Part shown: one piece after another, positions 43,138-52,336 of the stretch
Position numbering within the stretch: position 1 is the first letter of the stretch
How the letters are laid out: each line of letters starts with the position of its first letter
Assembly: GCF_000517545.1 (NCBI RefSeq)
Contig: NZ_BAIV01000006.1
Location: forward strand, 124,001-188,000
Length of the DNA stretch: 64,000 bases
DNA from: Bacteroides reticulotermitis JCM 10512
GTDB taxonomy: Bacteria > Bacteroidota > Bacteroidia > Bacteroidales > Bacteroidaceae
Direction of reading: 5' to 3'
Program-made: the position numbers and the translations under genes
Notes under the pieces: generated by a model
Database searches by the model: none
The model's input: only the letters and a program-made list of their open reading frames with translations
Told to the model about the DNA's origin: nothing

Positions 43138-44874
43138 TTATTTCCATCCCGGATTTTGCTCCAGCTTCGGATTCAACTGCAATTGATCGGAAGGTAATGG
43201 ATATAAATATAGCTTATCGGCCCAAACCCGACCATCATAAAGGATAATACAGCCATCGCTATTCAAGGCACGCGACTGATTGGTCCAGTGAGACTCGAAC
43301 CAAGTACCTGTATACTTCACGCCAAGCTGATTCTCAACCATTTCTTTCGGAGCAGTAGCCCAACGTTTCAAGTCGTCAATACGGAAACCTTCAAGTACCA
43401 GTTCCAAGGTACGTTCCCGACGGATCTCTTCACGCATAGAGAGTTGATTGTTTGAAACGAACGTATTGCTTAACTTCGGCATATCCGGATTGATACGTGT
43501 GCGAACAAGGTTGAGAGATAAATCCAAATCGGTATCCTCAATGCTACCATCCAATTCGTAACAAGCTTCGGCGTAGTTCAACAGAACCTCGGCATAACGA
43601 ATAACCGGATAGTCCATAGACTCTTGTGTATCGGCCACCAAGCGTTCTACCGCCCATTTATGATTCTGGTATCCGCTATTTGAAGTTACGGAAAGAGTCA
43701 ACGCTCTTGTCAAATCTTGGCTATCCCAAGTAGAACGTGAATTATTGGTCGTATTATTCCAATACTTATCACCATGCTGCATCAAGGTAGTTGTCATTCG
43801 ATTATCACGATTCTGGAATTCGTCAGTTACACCTACGTACTTCTTAAAGAGCGGAGATTTATCAATAGGCAGTCCATCCGAGCACAGATACAAGTTGGCC
43901 CATTTGCGGGTTACGAAAGTAGCGTTCGCCAGATAGCCCTTCGTGATATTGGTGCCAATACCATCTTCCAACCGATGGCGACGCGATAAGATGTATTCGG
44001 TATTATCCGTTTTAGTCAGACGAGCCGGGTTACAGGCGGCATCTTCCAGAATAAACATATAGCGGTAGCTTTCTACCCCAAGCTTTTCATTGTAAAACAG
44101 ACTAAAGCGCTTGCCGGAAATGACCTTAGAAGCGGCATCTTTAGCAATCGTCAACAGAGCCTTGCTACGTTCCGTATTCGTTGTCGCAGTACTTCCGTTT
44201 GTATGGAACTTCTGCCAAGTTCCTTCGTACAAGGCTACTCGAGAAAGCATGGCCCAAGCGGCGTCCTTGGTTACTCTGCCAGCTTCCGCTTTTTCGGGCA
44301 ATCCATTGATCGACTCCTGCAAGTCCTGTACAATCTGATCAATGACAACAGATCGATCGTCACGCGCTACATGAAGTTCGGGAGAATTTAAGTCCAACGG
44401 TTTGGTAACCTTAATAACGTTTCCAAAGAGCTGTACCAGTTCGAAATAGCAATACGCACGGAAGAACTTGGCTTCAGCTACCGGAACGGCAATAGACGCT
44501 TTATCGGCAAAAGACTCCGCTTTGCTTAATAGCAGATTCGTATAGTAAATACGTGTGTACAGTGTTGTATAGTTACCATCACTTTCAGGGATCGAATTCG
44601 TACCTTTACTGTATGTGTTTACAGAAGCACCCGCAATAAGGTCGGAACGCCAATCACTATGAGGGCCATCACTGGTACCGCACATATAGGTAGTCGAGCT
44701 ATGAAAGTCGCGGGTCCAGGTATAGAACTGATTCGTGAATAACTGGAAACTAGATGCTTTATTCCAAACGATAGCATCATTCAATTCTGCCTTCGGCTCA
44801 AGATCCAGACAAGAAGTTGTCAGCATACTCAATAAAGAAAGGCAAGCTATTTTTATGTATTGTTTCTTTTTCAT
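43138..44874 (-). CDS. SusD/RagB family lipoprotein, cassette 1
   Basis: A 578-residue outer-membrane lipoprotein (LTTSCLDLEPKAEL) that captures glycan and forms the lid of the SusC transporter. The TPR-like helices include AEAKFFRAYCYFELVQLFGNV. The SusD-type C-terminal hallmarks are MREEIRRERTLELVLEGFRIDDLKRW and YPLPSDQLQLNPKLEQNPGW. It starts 11 bases after the SusC stop. Large stretches match the partial SusD at the right edge (for example LSRVALYEGTWQKF and DEFQNRDNRM). Confidence 0.95.
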   Translation of the reverse strand: MKKKQYIKIACLSLLSMLTTSCLDLEPKAELNDAIVWNKASSFQLFTNQFYTWTRDFHSSTTYMCGTSDGPHSDWRSDLIAGASVNTYSKGTNSIPESDGNYTTLYTRIYYTNLLLSKAESFADKASIAVPVAEAKFFRAYCYFELVQLFGNVIKVTKPLDLNSPELHVARDDRSVVIDQIVQDLQESINGLPEKAEAGRVTKDAAWAMLSRVALYEGTWQKFHTNGSTATTNTERSKALLTIAKDAASKVISGKRFSLFYNEKLGVESYRYMFILEDAACNPARLTKTDNTEYILSRRHRLEDGIGTNITKGYLANATFVTRKWANLYLCSDGLPIDKSPLFKKYVGVTDEFQNRDNRMTTTLMQHGDKYWNNTTNNSRSTWDSQDLTRALTLSVTSNSGYQNHKWAVERLVADTQESMDYPVIRYAEVLLNYAEACYELDGSIEDTDLDLSLNLVRTRINPDMPKLSNTFVSNNQLSMREEIRRERTLELVLEGFRIDDLKRWATAPKEMVENQLGVKYTGTWFESHWTNQSRALNSDGCIILYDGRVWADKLYLYPLPSDQLQLNPKLEQNPGWK

Positions 44875-44885
44875 CAGATATTAAT

Positions 44886-47800
44886 TTAGAAAGTTAAGTT
44901 CACGCCAAAAGTAAAGTTACGGGTAAAGGGATAACGTTTCAAACCGGAAACATCGCGAGTAGCTTCCGGATCCCATCCGTCTTTAATTTTAGTAGTTTCC
45001 CAAAGATCCGCTCCCGTCACATACAGACGAGCGCCCTGAATGACTTTCGTCTTACTCAGCATATCAGCAGGGAAAGTATATCCGATAGTCACATTCTTCA
45101 AACGAAGGTACCGTCCATCCTGAGCGGTGATAGAAGATGCCTGGTAGTTATAATTGTTGATCTCGCTATTGTTGGTATAAGGAGCATAATAGGCGTTCGG
45201 AGTAGAAGTGTTCCACGTATTGCCGATAGAAGATGTTATCGTATTGGTATAGTTGGAACGGAAAGGAACAGTCCAGTTGTCGATACCCCGATAAATAAAC
45301 CGGTTGGCCGAACCTTGGAAGATCACATTAATATCAAATCCTTTATACGCCGCTCCTAAATTGAATGAGTACGAGATTTCGGGAGTATCACTTCCTAAGT
45401 AGATATAATCCTTATAATCGAGTACGCCGTCACCGTTTTCGTCGCAGAACATATTGTCACCTACACGCAATTCAGCCGGCATACCGATACCGTTATTGTT
45501 ATAATACTTAGCTTGATAAGCCGCCAACTGCTCTTCATTCTGGATCTTACCACCGTAACGCAGTCCGAATATCGAATTCAGCGGATATCCTTGTTGTGTC
45601 CCCTTGTACCCGGAACTAATAACCGTTGTACCACCAAAGTCCACCAATTCGTTTCGAGTAAACGTGAAGTTTCCACCCGCATGATAGTCTACTTCTCCGA
45701 TCTTACCGCGATAAGCTAACTGACCTTCAAATCCCCAGCCCTTAAACTTACCGGCATTGGAAGTCGGTGCTTTATCACCCAAAATACCCGGATAGGTAAC
45801 CTCGACCAACATATTGTTGTTCCGCTTCATAAAAGCTTCTACCGTACCGGTGAGGCGACCGTTGAGGAATCCAAAATCTACTGCGATGTTGTAGTTTTTA
45901 ATACGTTCCCAATTACGGGTTGTAGAAGCGAATTTCCCATTAGTAGCAATGTAAGAAAGTTTATCCGAACCTACAAAAGCGCCGGTTCCGGACACTAGCT
46001 TATAAAACAGATAACCATCATAATTATCAATACCACTCTGGCTACCCATTTCGGCATAAGAAGCACGCAGCTTCAGATCACTCAGGAAATCGACATCTTT
46101 CAGGAACGCTTCCTGCTTTAAACGCCATCCCAGAGAGAAACCGTAGAAAAGATCCCAACGGTTCTCCGGTTGGAACTTCGACGAACCATCATACCGGGCA
46201 TTAACCTCAACGAGGTAGCGGCTGTCATAATCATAATTAAGACGACCAAAATAGGACATATTAGCATTCTGATAATTATTTTTCTTCATGGCTTCGTCCT
46301 TATCAGCCAAAGTCAACGAGCCGGTACCGTTGATAATATCAACGCCAGCGAGGATGTCGGTATAGTTGGCCCCATAGTAACTCATGTCCTTGAACTCGTA
46401 TTGAGTACCCAACGTCAGACTCAGGTTATGCTTCTGAGCAAAAGTCTTGTGCGCATTGATATAACCGGAGAACGAGTAGAAATCGGTGCGCGAAGTTGTT
46501 TGCTGATAATATGATTTCTCTTGCGAAGGATCGACAAGCGTCTGCGAGTTACCGACAAAGTTATAATACGTAATTGCATTCTGCACGGTGCTGCGACTGG
46601 CAGTAGAAGTATTATAACCCACGTTAACACTGGCATCCAACCAATCGGTTACTTTGGCATTCAGCGTTTCACTGATATTGATCGCCGAGACAGACAGTTT
46701 GTTGTCTCCTCCCTGTTCTACTTTAGAAACGGGTGATCCCCATGTTCCCCAAGCATAAGGTTTTCCATCGGATGTTTTCAACGGAAGTCCGGGCATCGGC
46801 ATCGATACTGTCAGCACAGAACCGATCAAGGTAGGTGACACCTGCTCCTGACGATTGTATGAGATAGCGGATTCCAATGAGATATTACGATTGAACTTAT
46901 ACGTGTTGTTGACACGGAAGTTATAGCGGTTGTTATTGTTATTACCGTATTGCAACGTAGAACCATCGTACAAATAGTTCAATGAAACACGATACGAAGA
47001 TTTGTCCGATCCGCCGGATATGCTCAGGCTTTGTTCGGTAGACCAAGTCGTATCAAAGAGTGAACCCAACCAGTTTACGCTATCATCAAACACGAAGTCT
47101 TTCACATCCGTAAAAGCTGCTGATCCAAAAGGATTGGCACTTGTTTCCAAGTCGATATAAGAATTCTTATATTTTTTAGCCAACTGGGCATACGTATACC
47201 ACACGTTAGATGTATTATTGTCGTTGGACAAAGCAGACATTACGCCGTCCGCCCATTGGTCGATGTTCATCAATTCGGGCATCAAGCAACGGTTTTCATA
47301 GTGGCAGTAGCCCCATACTCAACCTTTACCTTACCTTCAACTCCTTTTTTGGTGGTGATCAAAACAACTCCACCGGCTGCTCGCGAACCATAAATGGCTG
47401 CCGAACCATCTTTAAGGAAGTTGATTGTTTCAATGTCATTGGGGTTGAGCAGACGCATGTCGTTGACACTATTACACGCTACCCCATCGATGATAATCAA
47501 TGGTTCGGTCGAGTTTTTAGAAGAAGAACCACGAAGATTCAAACTCCAGCTCTCGTCGCCCGGTGCGGAAGACCCGCGGGTTATCATAACTCCGGCAACC
47601 TGTCCCTGTAAAGCTTCTAAGGGGCTCGAAAGGCCTCCCTTTTCTTGAAAGGATTTGGCTCCGACTACGGTTACAGCACCTGTCAACGATTCTTTCTTTT
47701 GAGTTCCGTAACCCACTACTACGACTTCATCCAGCAGTTCGCTATCTTCCATCAATTTAACATTGATAGTCGATTGAGCGGTTACTGTTATTATCTGATC

Positions 47801-48109
47801 CTTGTAACCAATGTAGCTGAATTTCAAGTTTGTCCCAGCCGAAGCATTGATAGAGTAGTTACCATCGATATCGGTAATCGTTCCGCCGACTCCACCTACT
47901 ACACTGACATTGACTCCAATCAGCGGTTCGCCATTCGGGTCGACTACCTTGCCTTGAATCTTCTTTTGTGCTTGTGCCACTACCTGATTTTCATTTTGAT
48001 CAGCATTAGCCCAGGCCCTTGAAGCAGGACATAGCCCTAACATCAATCCTAATGCAAGCACGATTGTCTTGTTAGGCCGCGAATTAAAAATTAATCCTCT
48101 TTGTTTCAT
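44886..48109 (-). CDS. SusC/RagA family TonB-dependent transporter, cassette 1, one-base frameshift
   Basis: About 1074 residues after repair. There is a signal peptide (about 1-35), a carboxypeptidase-D-like domain (KIQGKVVDPNGEPLIGVNVSV), the SusC signature VVVGYGTQKKESLTGAV and a plug (EALQGQVAGVMITRGSSAPG, IYGSRAAGGVVLITTKKG). The barrel ends FTFGVNLTF. There is no N-terminal STN domain, so direct anti-sigma signalling is not expected. The frame breaks at the AA of 47284-47285, where one base is missing. It imports large oligosaccharides together with the SusD lid protein. Confidence 0.93.
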
Positions 48110-48248
48110 AAAATTAAATTTGAGGTTTAAAAATAGTATTTATTTCTTCTTTTCTAAAATTAGACGGAGTATAAGAATGGCTCCGAATTAATTCTGACTC
48201 TTGTTCCATATATGCAAAATGTTGTTATTAAGTAATTTAAGCAATGAA

Positions 48249-48764
48249 TTAAATGCATTTTTTAAAGCATTCGCGCATCTCACGCCGTCCCAGAAAAAGG
48301 TGATTTTCTACGGTACGCCGACTGAGTTGAAGCGTACCGGCTATTTCGGTCGAAGTCTTTCCTTGGTAACGGTTCAGGGTATAGACCAGGCGACGCTGCT
48401 CCGGAAAAGCACCGAGTATGCGTAGTTCTGTCTGCGCCAGATCATTGGCGATGACTTTTTCTTCTGTCTCGTTGGTGGAAGTAACCGAATAGTCGTATAG
48501 ATAACTATTTATCTCCTGCTTCTTATAATAGCGACGGATATAGTCGGTCACAATGTTGCGCGCGATTGTAAACAGGAAGTACTTCACGGTATCCGGACGA
48601 AGCATTTGCTTATAATCCAGCAGACGTACAAATACATCCTGGGTCAGATCTTCTGCTTCGTAGCGATGGGTGATGCGATACGTTATATAGGAAAGAATTA
48701 CCTGATAATATTCTTCGTAAGAACGGGTAATGATGTTGTTGGAAGTGTTAGTTGCTGTCTTCAT
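48249..48764 (-). CDS. ECF-type RNA polymerase sigma factor
   Basis: About 171 residues from ATG 48764. Sigma region 2 lies at about 45-80 (YEAEDLTQDVFVRLLDY then YFLFTIARNIVTDYIRR) and region 4 near the end (FPEQRRLVYTLNRYQGKTSTEIAGTLQLSRRTVENHLFLGR). The open frame extends to 48791, but the -7 element at 48796-48803 places transcription start after that codon. No FecR-type anti-sigma gene is adjacent and the downstream SusC lacks an STN domain, so its control is unclear. It sits 139 bases upstream of SusC and may drive that cassette. Confidence 0.88.
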   Translation of the reverse strand: MKTATNTSNNIITRSYEEYYQVILSYITYRITHRYEAEDLTQDVFVRLLDYKQMLRPDTVKYFLFTIARNIVTDYIRRYYKKQEINSYLYDYSVTSTNETEEKVIANDLAQTELRILGAFPEQRRLVYTLNRYQGKTSTEIAGTLQLSRRTVENHLFLGRREMRECFKKCI

Positions 48765-48795: not shown

Positions 48796-48803
48796 CAAAT
48801 ATA
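48796..48803 (-). promoter_or_regulatory. -7 element for the ECF sigma gene
   Basis: Reads TATATTTG on the minus strand, 31 bases upstream of the chosen ATG at 48764. Confidence 0.55.
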
Positions 48804-49016
48804 GAATGGATTATGAAGATACCTACCGGGAAAAGGTACGGATCGATCTCAACGTATCGAGCTAGACTAATTAGCAACCAACCAACTGTATACCAGCCAA
48901 ATAAAACAAAGAAACCCGCAGTCTCATATTATTAAATGAGACTTATTTCCTATTGTCCGGCACCTTTCTGCCCGAAAGAGGGTTGCTTTTCGGAAACTCA
49001 TGGCTTGTTTCGGTTT

Positions 49017-49545: not shown

Positions 49546-52336
49546 TTATTCCTCTTTATCCGTTCCTCCGATGCTTCGGATATACTCATTGGGAGTAACG
49601 CCAGTACTCTTTTTAAATGAACGGAAGAACGAAGCACGCGAACTAAAACCGCAAAGTTCCGCCAACGCACTCAGCGTGTAACGGGCATACTGACTGTCGG
49701 TTACAATCTTTTTGAAGCGCATCACCCGATATTCATTAATGAAGTCATAATAAGATTGCTTGAGATACTGGTTCAACAGATAGGACAAGGAGTGAGAAGA
49801 GACCTTTAAAGCGGTTGCCAAATCACCCATTTTCAGTTCCGGATTGATGTAAGGATGCTCGGCCTCAACATAAGCCACCAAACGTTCATAAAGTTCCTTG
49901 CATTCCGCATCGGTCAACCGATTGGTTTTATACTTCTCTTCGGGCTGAGGTTCTTCGTGAAGAGTTTCCACAGCCGTTTCTTCCTCCGGTTTCTCTTTCT
50001 GTGAGAGAGCAGACACCATGGCACGGCGTATCGGTCGCCAGACATAATAGCGGATAAGCAAAACACCGGTGACGACCAACACACAAAGAAGTCCCCAGCC
50101 CCACCAAGATTAAGGGAGAGATCTTTACTTCATACACAGCCTCGGATTGCTCATTGCCCGGAAGACGTACCCGAAAGGAGTACTTCCCCGCCGCTAGTCC
50201 GTAGTAAGCCACCTCGCTCTGGGCAGTCAGTAGCTTCCAGGCGGAATCAACTCCTTCCAAACGATATTCGTACAGAAGAGCGGAAGGAAGGCCATAGGCG
50301 AAATCGGTAAAGCTGAAAGTCAGGTTATTCTGATCATGCGCCAACTCTTGTCCCATGACCGATATTCCATTGGCCAATACATCGGTAAACACGATGGGAC
50401 GTACTTTGTGACGCACTTCATTCACTTTGGCAGGATCTACATAAATCAGTCCTTTGGTGTTGCCGAACCACAAGATTCCTCGCTCATCCTTATAAGCCGT
50501 TCCATTCGTAAAAGTAGGTCCTGGCACGCCATCATTAAAGCTGAAAGAGTCGTACTCCTCTCCTTCTCCTTTCATTCGTATCAACCCGTCGTTGCAACCT
50601 ATCCAGAGCCAGTTCAGATTATCTTCCACGATCGACATCAAGGAATTGTCGGGCAAAGCGGATAGTATCGGTAAGTTGCGGTAACGCTCCATGGACAGGG
50701 TTGACGTAAACAAACTGCCTTTTTCACGAATAAAGTACAGATTATGCTGGCTGTCTTCGTAAATGGTTCGCACCTTATCCTTGTGGACAAAGCCTTCAGG
50801 GAACACATTGGAGCGGAGACTTTGGGAAGTCGGGTCGTATATACACATCCCGGTTTCCGTAGCAATCCAGCCCTTACCGGTAGAATCAAAATTGATTTCG
50901 TAGACATTACCTTCCGGCAATTGCGAATTGGCGCTGTTGTAGTTCTTAATCTCCTTCGTCTGTCCGTCGTAGCAGAACAATCCCTGAGAGGTTCCGATCC
51001 ACAGATGCCCCTTTGTATCAGGCCGTATACAGAAGATGTGCCCTTTCTGAAAGAGTTCGGCATCACCTTGCGTGAAGTATTTAAGCGATAGGGTTTGGGG
51101 ATTAAGCACCATCATGCCGCCGCCATAAGTACCCACATAGTATTCGCCTTCGTAGAAACAGATGGTGAGGATCAGGTCGGACGTCAGCACCGGTTTCACG
51201 AAGCTCTTGACGATGCCGGTCGACTCGTTGATGTAAAACAAACCGTCACGGGAACCAATCACTTTCTCTTCGCCCCGATTCTCAAAAGAGCGTATGGAGA
51301 GGTTGGTGGAGTTAAACAGAGGAGGATAAGCATAGGTTTGGAAAAGCCCGTTTTGATAGAGCGAGTAATCTAATCCGGCTTGGAAGTGTCCCACCCAAAG
51401 CGCATTCCGATCATCTACCAACAGCGAGTAGACGGAGTTACTGCGAATGCCGTCTTTGTTGGTCAGTTCGTGACAGAAGCTACGTACCACCTGCTCTTTC
51501 TTATGCGATAGGAAATGCACACCATTGCCATCTGTAGCCACATAAATCAGATCTTTCCCATCACTGGATATATCGGAAATAACGTCGCACCCCAAAGAAA
51601 CGGTATGCGAAAAGGCTTGTCGGGTCATGTCGAAGCGAACAACTCCTTGGCTCATCGTGCCCAAATAGAGGGTTTGCCCAATGCGGGCTAAGCAACGAAA
51701 GTAATCTGCTTCGGGCACGTTCTCCCAGAAATGCCAGGAATCTATCTTTTTACTTTTCAGCGAATAGGCATATAGTCCCTGCACCGTAGCCATCCAAAGC
51801 ACATCTTTATCTTCGCTCAGACAGATATCCATGATCCGGTTGCAGGCAGCCAGCATGTTTTTATCGATGGGAACGTGCGTGAATTGTCCGCCTTCCTGAA
51901 TATACAACCCTTTATCGGTGCCGATATAAAGCGTTTCTCCATCAGCCAACAGGGCGTTTACCGTAAAGTCTATTTTCTCGGAGACGATGCGTTCTAGTTC
52001 GTGAGTCGAATGGTTTAATCGCCAAAGACCGATACCATTGCCCACCCATAGCTGTTTGCTGTCGGTTTCGGCAATGCAGTTGACTCGTTTCTTACGACCG
52101 AAGTCTATGCCTCGGAATTCGAAATGTTTGACTTTCACGCCATCAAAACGATCCAGACAGTTGTCGGTACCTAGCCAAACGAAGCCCTCCGAATCTTTAT
52201 AAATAGCGTTAACCAACAATCCGGATAAGCCGTCAGTCATCACAACATTACGAAATGTATAGTTCTGTGCCTGCGAATTTATTCCGCAAACCAGACAAAC
52301 AACAATTGTAATGAGGTATTTAACTACGTCTTTCAC
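49546..52336 (-). CDS. Membrane sensor-AraC regulator: Reg_prop propeller, Y_Y_Y, no kinase, one-base frameshift
   Basis: About 929 residues after repair. A signal peptide (1-23) leads into periplasmic Reg_prop propeller repeats (DSEGFVWLGTDNCLDRFDG, KGHLWIGTSQGLFCYDG, WLWIGCNDGLIRM). A Y_Y_Y domain follows (EYRLEGVDSAWKLL), then a membrane segment and a 45-residue acidic linker. It ends in an AraC-type helix-turn-helix (LSALAELCGFSSRASFFRSFKKSTGVTPNEY). HisKA, HATPase and receiver domains, standard in hybrid two-component sensors of PULs, are absent. The join lies at 50110-50113, where one surplus base separates KISPL from SWWGWGLLCVLVV. It probably senses oligosaccharide in the periplasm and activates the PUL directly. 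A TATCTTTG element lies upstream. Confidence 0.88.

Follow-up and report, generated by a model that had tools for sequence, protein, structure and literature searches.

A sensor joined directly to AraC, in two broken frames

How could a periplasmic sensor drive transcription when neither a kinase nor a receiver lies between it and its DNA-binding domain? This question is raised by REG, a gene at 49546..52336 of the window (the whole 64,000-nt stretch of Bacteroides reticulotermitis JCM 10512 DNA that was analysed), whose product a sequence-only reading had described as a propeller sensor joined to AraC without a kinase. Based on open reading frames, Pfam and intact relatives, REG comprises a Reg_prop/Y_Y_Y sensor, a membrane helix, a linker and an AraC domain, and is frame-split near 50110. 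It lies on the minus strand, as do the operator-like sites, the promoter element and the sigma, SusC and SusD genes described below.

REG appears as two overlapping frames. The first (49928-52336; 802 aa) begins with a signal-peptide-like segment of about 24 aa (52265..52336), assigned from the sequence and from a helix at residues 2-18 in the structural model of the relative L002. It continues with the periplasmic sensor (50129..52231), in which Reg_prop repeats (E 7e-30) are followed by Y_Y_Y (50129-50296; E 3e-11), an assignment made with Pfam and the fold of the L002 model. The second frame (49546-50082; 178 aa) has an HTH_18/HTH_AraC-type end (HTH_18 E 6e-15). This AraC frame stays open upstream as far as the stop at 50110-50112. 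It covers the membrane helix (50038..50106; seen in the sequence and as helix 745-774 of the L002 model) and a cytoplasmic linker of about 35 aa (49933..50037; sequence and L002 model), which lead into the AraC output module (49567..49932, with HTH_18 at 49576-49821), identified by Pfam and HTH trees.

Gaps in DNA alignments with relatives place a net one-base frame slip within about 50100-50127 (50100..50127), which upholds the earlier placement of the join near 50110; judged by these alignments, the two frames are one gene broken by that slip. Since such breaks look frequent across this assembly, the adjacent SusC gene being another case, a sequence error is likelier than a true pseudogene in the strain. 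Only 20 of the 41 HTCS genes in the same genome retain, at Y_Y_Y, a frame that reaches 1200 aa, genes at contig ends included. A break close to the join, together with 21 of 41 HTCS genes lacking a 1200-aa frame, would also suit a different explanation, namely that REG is a degenerate or mis-assembled HTCS whose kinase and receiver were lost through deletion or assembly error. The relatives and the AraC domain argue against this.

The layout is conserved among relatives

A sensor search over 301 genomes of the family Bacteroidaceae (E up to 1e-60; three candidates scored per genome) yielded matches in at least 26 genomes, the closest being 79% identical. Among the 29 relatives that were fetched, 28 encode the identical order of parts in a single frame of 872-979 aa; they end in AraC, and their hydrophobic helix is mostly found around residue 750. 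The exception is L011, with two in-frame TGA stops. Two further rows of the sensor search lay outside the fetched 29, and one of these had a frame of only 657 aa. The direct join of propeller sensor to AraC is therefore real, and with relatives intact and equal in length and layout, no large assembly deletion was found at 50000-50120.

Pfam scans of 18 members detected Reg_prop in 18, HTH_18 in 18, HTH_AraC in 17 and Y_Y_Y in 11 (E up to 0.01). HisKA, HATPase_c and Response_reg were found in none of these 18. The exclusion of a phosphorelay, first proposed for the window gene, is thus borne out across a conserved layout.

The same architecture occurs elsewhere in Bacteroidales. Full-length members are present among the best 80 loci of a wider contig scan in Bacteroides, Parabacteroides, Phocaeicola, Prevotella, Paraprevotella, Dysgonomonas and others; these 80 also include more distant matches in Arenibacter, Flagellimonas and Aestuariibaculum, and about the last 30 align at the AraC end only. 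B. cellulosilyticus and B. acidifaciens are among the Bacteroides in which the gene occurs. Distant matches along REG were also seen outside Bacteroidota, on Candidatus Aminicenantes MAG contigs (L093, L096 and L099). The only records returned by a search of plasmid DNA were two from Bacteroides finegoldii.

The structure predicted by AlphaFold2 for the intact relative L002 reaches a mean pLDDT of 85, with the helix at 745-774, an AraC domain near pLDDT 90 and a linker stretch (774-812) below 50. Its best Foldseek matches in the PDB are the HTCS sensors BT4663 (4a2m), BT3049 (3v9f) and BT4673 (3ott). The linker had been described as acidic and about 45 residues long; it is indeed acidic in the window copy, at about 35 residues, but not in the family average (mean 8.7 D+E versus 10.9 K+R). 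Among 71 sequences, some proteins being represented twice, the linker could be measured by rule in 49 and was 23 to 70 residues long.

A long linker of low model confidence and a single membrane helix are what regulated proteolysis would call for, whereby cleavage in or near the helix frees a soluble AraC activator. However, linker length and sequence vary among relatives. A specific cleavage site finds no support, because the alignment of relatives has no fixed linker motif.

The AraC domain lies outside the HTCS clade

Among the 43 Y_Y_Y genes in the window's genome, 39 have a HisKA match within about 300 bp, and two further ones show the usual long distance from Y_Y_Y to HTH_18 (1351 and 1558 bp). 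HTH_18 lies within about 310 bp of Y_Y_Y only in REG (308 bp) and its paralogue (295 bp), compared with 983-1603 bp in the other 41 cases.

Trees of 96 domains placed all 21 HTCS AraC domains in one clade (SH support 0.90, ultrafast bootstrap 97) and all 61 propeller and other non-HTCS AraC modules in one clade (SH 0.70, ultrafast bootstrap 99), although the non-HTCS module group is not a neutral sample, since most of it was found via a motif in the REG AraC domain. For the tree sample, 43 of the 93 HTH_18 matches in the genome were excised and 38 used, five partial or odd ones having been dropped by eye. Three own-genome domains were classed as non-HTCS membrane modules by eye, two of them with a strong hydrophobic segment. 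Of seven other non-HTCS modules scanned with Pfam, two have TPR, and the remaining five show no known domain at the N-terminus. The 33 Bacteroidales propeller AraC domains group together (bootstrap 69; 0.92 in the other tree, where L110 is included), and four flavobacterial ones are set apart (bootstrap 100). This separation in the trees hints that the propeller-AraC fusion arose more than once.

We therefore rejected the idea that REG is an HTCS stripped of its kinase: its AraC domain lies outside the HTCS clade, 28 of the 29 relatives fetched are unbroken and agree in length and layout, and a nearby HisKA accompanies 39 of the 43 Y_Y_Y genes, a close HTH_18 only REG and its paralogue. Decay or mis-assembly of an HTCS is scarcely credible as the origin of this gene.

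A sigma factor gene ahead of SusC and SusD accompanies REG

Downstream of REG lies the gene of an ECF-like sigma factor, SIG (48249..48764), with Sigma70_r2 and Sigma70_r4_2 by Pfam and a start codon set by alignment with relatives. A SusC-like transporter gene follows (44886..48109), frame-split near 47285 and with CarbopepD_reg_2 and Plug but no STN in its N-terminal piece, and then the gene of a SusD-like protein (43138..44874; Pfam). The enzymes encoded near REG in the window include GH28, GH95, GH2, GH43 and an alginate-lyase-family protein; they suggest, without naming it, a plant cell-wall glycan as substrate of the locus. A 31-codon frame between SIG and SusC (48114-48209), which four close relatives (L051, L052, L078 and L031) also have, was considered as a gene, but coding is unsupported because differences fall on all codon positions (e.g. 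11, 4, 8).

REG, SIG and SusC occur in this order in 12 of the 17 loci compared with the window genes, with SusD next in 11. Across the 51 Bacteroidales loci whose downstream sequence extends 2.2 kb or further, SIG lies on the same strand at most 2.1 kb downstream of REG in 34, within 1 kb upstream in two and in neither position in 15; four duplicate loci were removed from this count, in which close relatives remain. SIG was found near REG in none of six flavobacterial loci and none of three other distant loci with room. With 15 Bacteroidales loci and all flavobacterial and distant ones lacking a nearby SIG, the pairing is not obligatory. The intact REG paralogue in the same genome (L039) likewise has neither SIG nor an operator nearby.

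At the level of genomes, SIG matches with E up to 1e-40 divided the 301 family genomes into 22 with REG and SIG, two with SIG only, four with REG only and 273 with neither (Fisher p 3e-27 for co-occurrence, relatedness ignored). With a SIG threshold of 1e-25, the corresponding numbers were 23, 18, three and 257. These counts are lower bounds, as the SIG search scored 11 and the REG search three candidates per genome; genome G108, counted as REG-negative, does carry a propeller-AraC gene.

An ECF-like sigma factor beside SusC/SusD is also a feature that REG loci share with FecI/FecR PUL systems. In contrast to these, the next long frame after SIG begins at most 276 nt on in the 19 loci measured, which leaves no room for an anti-sigma gene, and STN is absent from SusC in the window and in 10 of 10 relatives scanned. 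Neither the adjacent anti-sigma gene nor the STN-bearing SusC by which a FecI-type sigma would be recognised was thus found in the window or its relatives. Against TIGR02985, SIG scores 118.6, below the cut-off of 126.4, which one ordinary sigma factor of the genome passes (152).

The missing anti-sigma gene, the missing STN and the co-occurrence of REG and SIG could all be accommodated if REG were mainly a membrane anti-sigma-like partner that holds and then frees SIG, its AraC domain being secondary. But SIG-clade sigma factors occur behind HTCS genes too (L171, L172, L179-L182 and L186-L188). In the window's genome, three of 41 HTCS genes are followed within 2 kb by an ECF sigma gene, and two of these sigmas fit the SIG model well. 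Fourteen further sigma-match loci include seven in which, by motif, an HTCS-like gene lies at most 1.4 kb upstream, one (L189) with a convergent propeller-AraC gene that falls below the 1e-60 threshold, and six with neither in the stretch examined.

Just beyond the window, an HTCS-like gene in several short frames (L150; G000:C92:192000-200000) has a Y_Y_Y-to-HTH_18 distance of 983 bp, compared with 1351-1603 bp in the other HTCS genes of the genome, and perhaps misses its receiver. A SIG-clade sigma gene (L176) lies divergently a few kb from it.

A rigid two-site element precedes SIG

Upstream of SIG in the window, a proximal operator-like site, GTCT-N6-AT-N4-TGAGAT (48839..48869), was identified by a motif in divergent loci and a leave-one-out matrix. 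A promoter element of the form TAnnTTTG (TATATTTG; 48796..48803), found by motif, lies 66 bp from its start. A motif search further revealed a distal operator-like site, the palindrome AGTCTCA-N10-TGAGACT (48919..48944), 75 bp from the proximal one.

This arrangement recurs. In 27 of 37 loci, TAnnTTTG follows the best REG-SIG intergenic site under the leave-one-out matrix at a distance of exactly 66 bp; in L070 and L098 the matrix chose an upstream copy and the proximal copy fits too, which raises the number to 29, of which 22 remain after dereplication at 70% identity. As a control, only 2 of 710 high-scoring matches elsewhere share the +66 TAnnTTTG offset. A second palindromic copy, which departs from the 14 fixed bases at 0-4 positions, is found 73-76 bp upstream in 24 of the 29 loci and 65 bp upstream in three, and is missing in L041 and L071. 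In a motif-free lag test, whose lag classes were fixed after 65 and 75 had appeared, 19 of the 29 loci left after dereplication had their best self-match at 64-66 or 74-76 bp (24 of all 36; L049 has no box), against a mean of 3.4 and a maximum of 9 over 300 single-base shuffles. Relatedness is uncorrected throughout these operator statistics.

The exact composite pattern occurs at nine places in the 301 genomes, all nine directly upstream of SIG, and its reverse at none; all but one of these places had been inspected before the pattern was written. It is present in eight of the 22 genomes with both REG and SIG and absent from 14. The operator core has two occurrences in the window's genome, one of them here. 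That the palindrome before SIG is a plain terminator is less likely, because a related site recurs at constant distance from the promoter. The conserved predicted target of REG looks like the promoter of the sigma-SusCD operon.

No 65/75-bp pattern was seen at the nine HTCS-SIG loci; among these, L172 has 21-bp direct repeats, L180 a top lag of 75 at a chance-like 10/14, and L181 no TAnnTTTG box. Inspection by eye found no SIG-specific promoter. At L190 (G163:C1, about 2186208), a second SIG gene 9 kb from the first carries an identical operator-promoter element, so that one regulator may control two operons. An operator-like site 8 kb downstream of REG, near a contig end (L058:20825), possibly precedes a SIG gene beyond that end.

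Operator score rises with the identity of the AraC domain to that of L053 (Spearman 0.75, p 1e-7, 36 of 37 loci, relatedness uncorrected). One exception, L069, has a strong site despite a fairly divergent AraC domain (58% identity), and L066, L071 and L090 have weak sites, though their first HTH resembles the main type. In eight of 37 loci the main site is missing, and the AraC domains of these loci differ to a varying degree. Other candidate tandem pairs were found blind in L063 and L064 (75 bp apart) and in L048 (61 bp apart). Candidate pairs 64-65 bp apart in L077, L079 and L081 were chosen by eye, where the blind scan favoured other lags and the motif-free lag test gave 64 for L081. No recognisable tandem site was found in L049 and L084.

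Both an anti-sigma-like role of REG and a foreign owner of the sites have to be weighed against these data. An operator and a promoter that precede SIG, with an operator score that tracks the AraC domain, speak against the former, which we consider very improbable. The tandem sites could also be bound by SIG itself or by an unlinked factor, with REG merely adjoining. Yet across the 301 genomes the exact element stands only before SIG genes, and the site score drops as the adjacent AraC domain diverges, relatedness again being uncorrected. In addition, the TAnnTTTG box, which we take to be the Bacteroides -7 element, presumably points to the housekeeping sigma factor rather than SIG. Service to another regulator is therefore likewise very improbable, and we proceed with REG as the predicted user of the element.

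Discussion

An architecture that is conserved, free of phosphorelay domains, linked to SIG and accompanied by a rigid two-site promoter element is best explained if REG is a membrane-anchored one-component activator of the sigma-SusCD operon, which we hold to be probable. The periplasmic propeller and Y_Y_Y part would sense an oligosaccharide, as suggested by the fold that it shares with HTCS sensors, and the signal would pass the membrane via the single helix and the flexible linker, probably carried by a rearrangement within a dimer. The membrane-held AraC domains are predicted to occupy a pair of sites that lie on one face of the DNA, about 75 or 65 bp from each other. Binding upstream of the TAnnTTTG promoter would then activate the ECF-like sigma gene, which in many relatives is closely followed by SusC. 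Because no anti-sigma gene lies between SIG and SusC, the level of SIG, as set by REG, probably controls SIG's own promoters. The non-phosphorelay signalling proposed by the sequence-only reading is thus supported, with a membrane one-component mode fitting the conserved layout and the 18 phosphorelay-free members best.

Other one-component proteins offer a frame for this model. With a non-HTCS AraC clade and a membrane segment, REG classifies as a one-component AraC protein, and the AraC domains of TPR-AraC and polytopic-AraC proteins belong to the same broad clade. These differ from REG N-terminally, where they have TPR (L113, L125) or, in L101, L104, L120, L122 and L123, several hydrophobic stretches and no Pfam domain. 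None of the 29 loci matched at the AraC end only has SIG nearby, a weak control because these loci come mostly from other orders. ToxR-like factors, whose DNA-binding domain is tethered to the membrane, have a comparable mode of action and differ in topology, in their winged-helix domain and in family.

REG resembles HTCS proteins (BT4663, BT3049, BT0366) in a sensor fold with propellers and Y_Y_Y, in its PUL setting and in its AraC-class end, and HTCS genes can also stand upstream of the same sigma clade. It differs from them by the lack of kinase and receiver (18 of 18 members) and by an AraC domain of a different clade. Moreover, its candidate tandem sites are 65 or 73-76 bp apart, whereas the available part of PMC3878776 gives an average of 21 bp for HTCS. 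The same part describes predicted tandem sites of SusR-like regulators with centres 67 or 77 bp apart, a spacing attributed there to large proteins that sit as dimers on a single face of the DNA. Consistent with this, the candidate sites of REG are 6-7 helical turns apart in 27 of 29 loci, and SusR-like regulators (BT3705, BT3091) are described as membrane proteins with a periplasmic sensor and a cytoplasmic DNA-binding domain, as is predicted for REG. Given 67/77 bp for SusR-like regulators versus 21 bp for HTCS (PMC3878776, available part), wide spacing is a plausible mark of membrane one-component regulators.

The likeness to SusR that had been drawn from the window gene is thus a fair functional parallel. 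Kinship is a separate question, since the C-terminal DNA-binding domain of SusR is reported to have no similarity to known DNA-binding domains (PMC3878776, available part). REG, unlike SusR, for which the published description alone served as comparison, combines HTH_18/HTH_AraC with a Reg_prop/Y_Y_Y sensor.

Spacing also bears on proteolytic release. Wide spacing could also arise from a soluble dimer that loops the DNA, but the wide fixed spacing of the REG sites is that of membrane-bound SusR-like regulators, as far as the available part of PMC3878776 describes them. Together with the variable linker, this makes the release route unlikely, and we favour REG acting from the membrane.

Regulators of Bacteroides polysaccharide loci named in the available parts of PMC3878776 and PMC6874557 are SusR-like, HTCS and ECF/anti-sigma. 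The available part of PMC3404733 has 'one-component system' as a label in a figure legend and does not describe the propeller-AraC architecture. In a literature search that covered few subscription papers, we recognised no publication describing this architecture, which may be in print. New here are the linkage to SIG and the two-site operator/TAnnTTTG element beside propeller-AraC genes. Whether REG exemplifies a further regulator class appears evenly balanced to us: kinase-less propeller-AraC proteins at the membrane, with sites 6 or 7 turns apart, would feed a sigma-SusCD node that HTCS also feed, and widely spaced tandem sites would in general mark dimeric regulators tethered to the membrane, SusR among them.

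The REG family mixes features of the SusR-like, HTCS and ECF/anti-sigma kinds, and an operator is predicted for it. One can therefore test directly how sugar sensing in the periplasm can switch on genes from the membrane without phosphate, and why wide spacing of sites might suit SusR-like proteins. For the locus itself, a sigma factor without an adjacent anti-sigma factor gains a predicted controller. If REG does represent a further class, one sigma-SusCD node would accept either REG input or the phosphorelay input of an HTCS.
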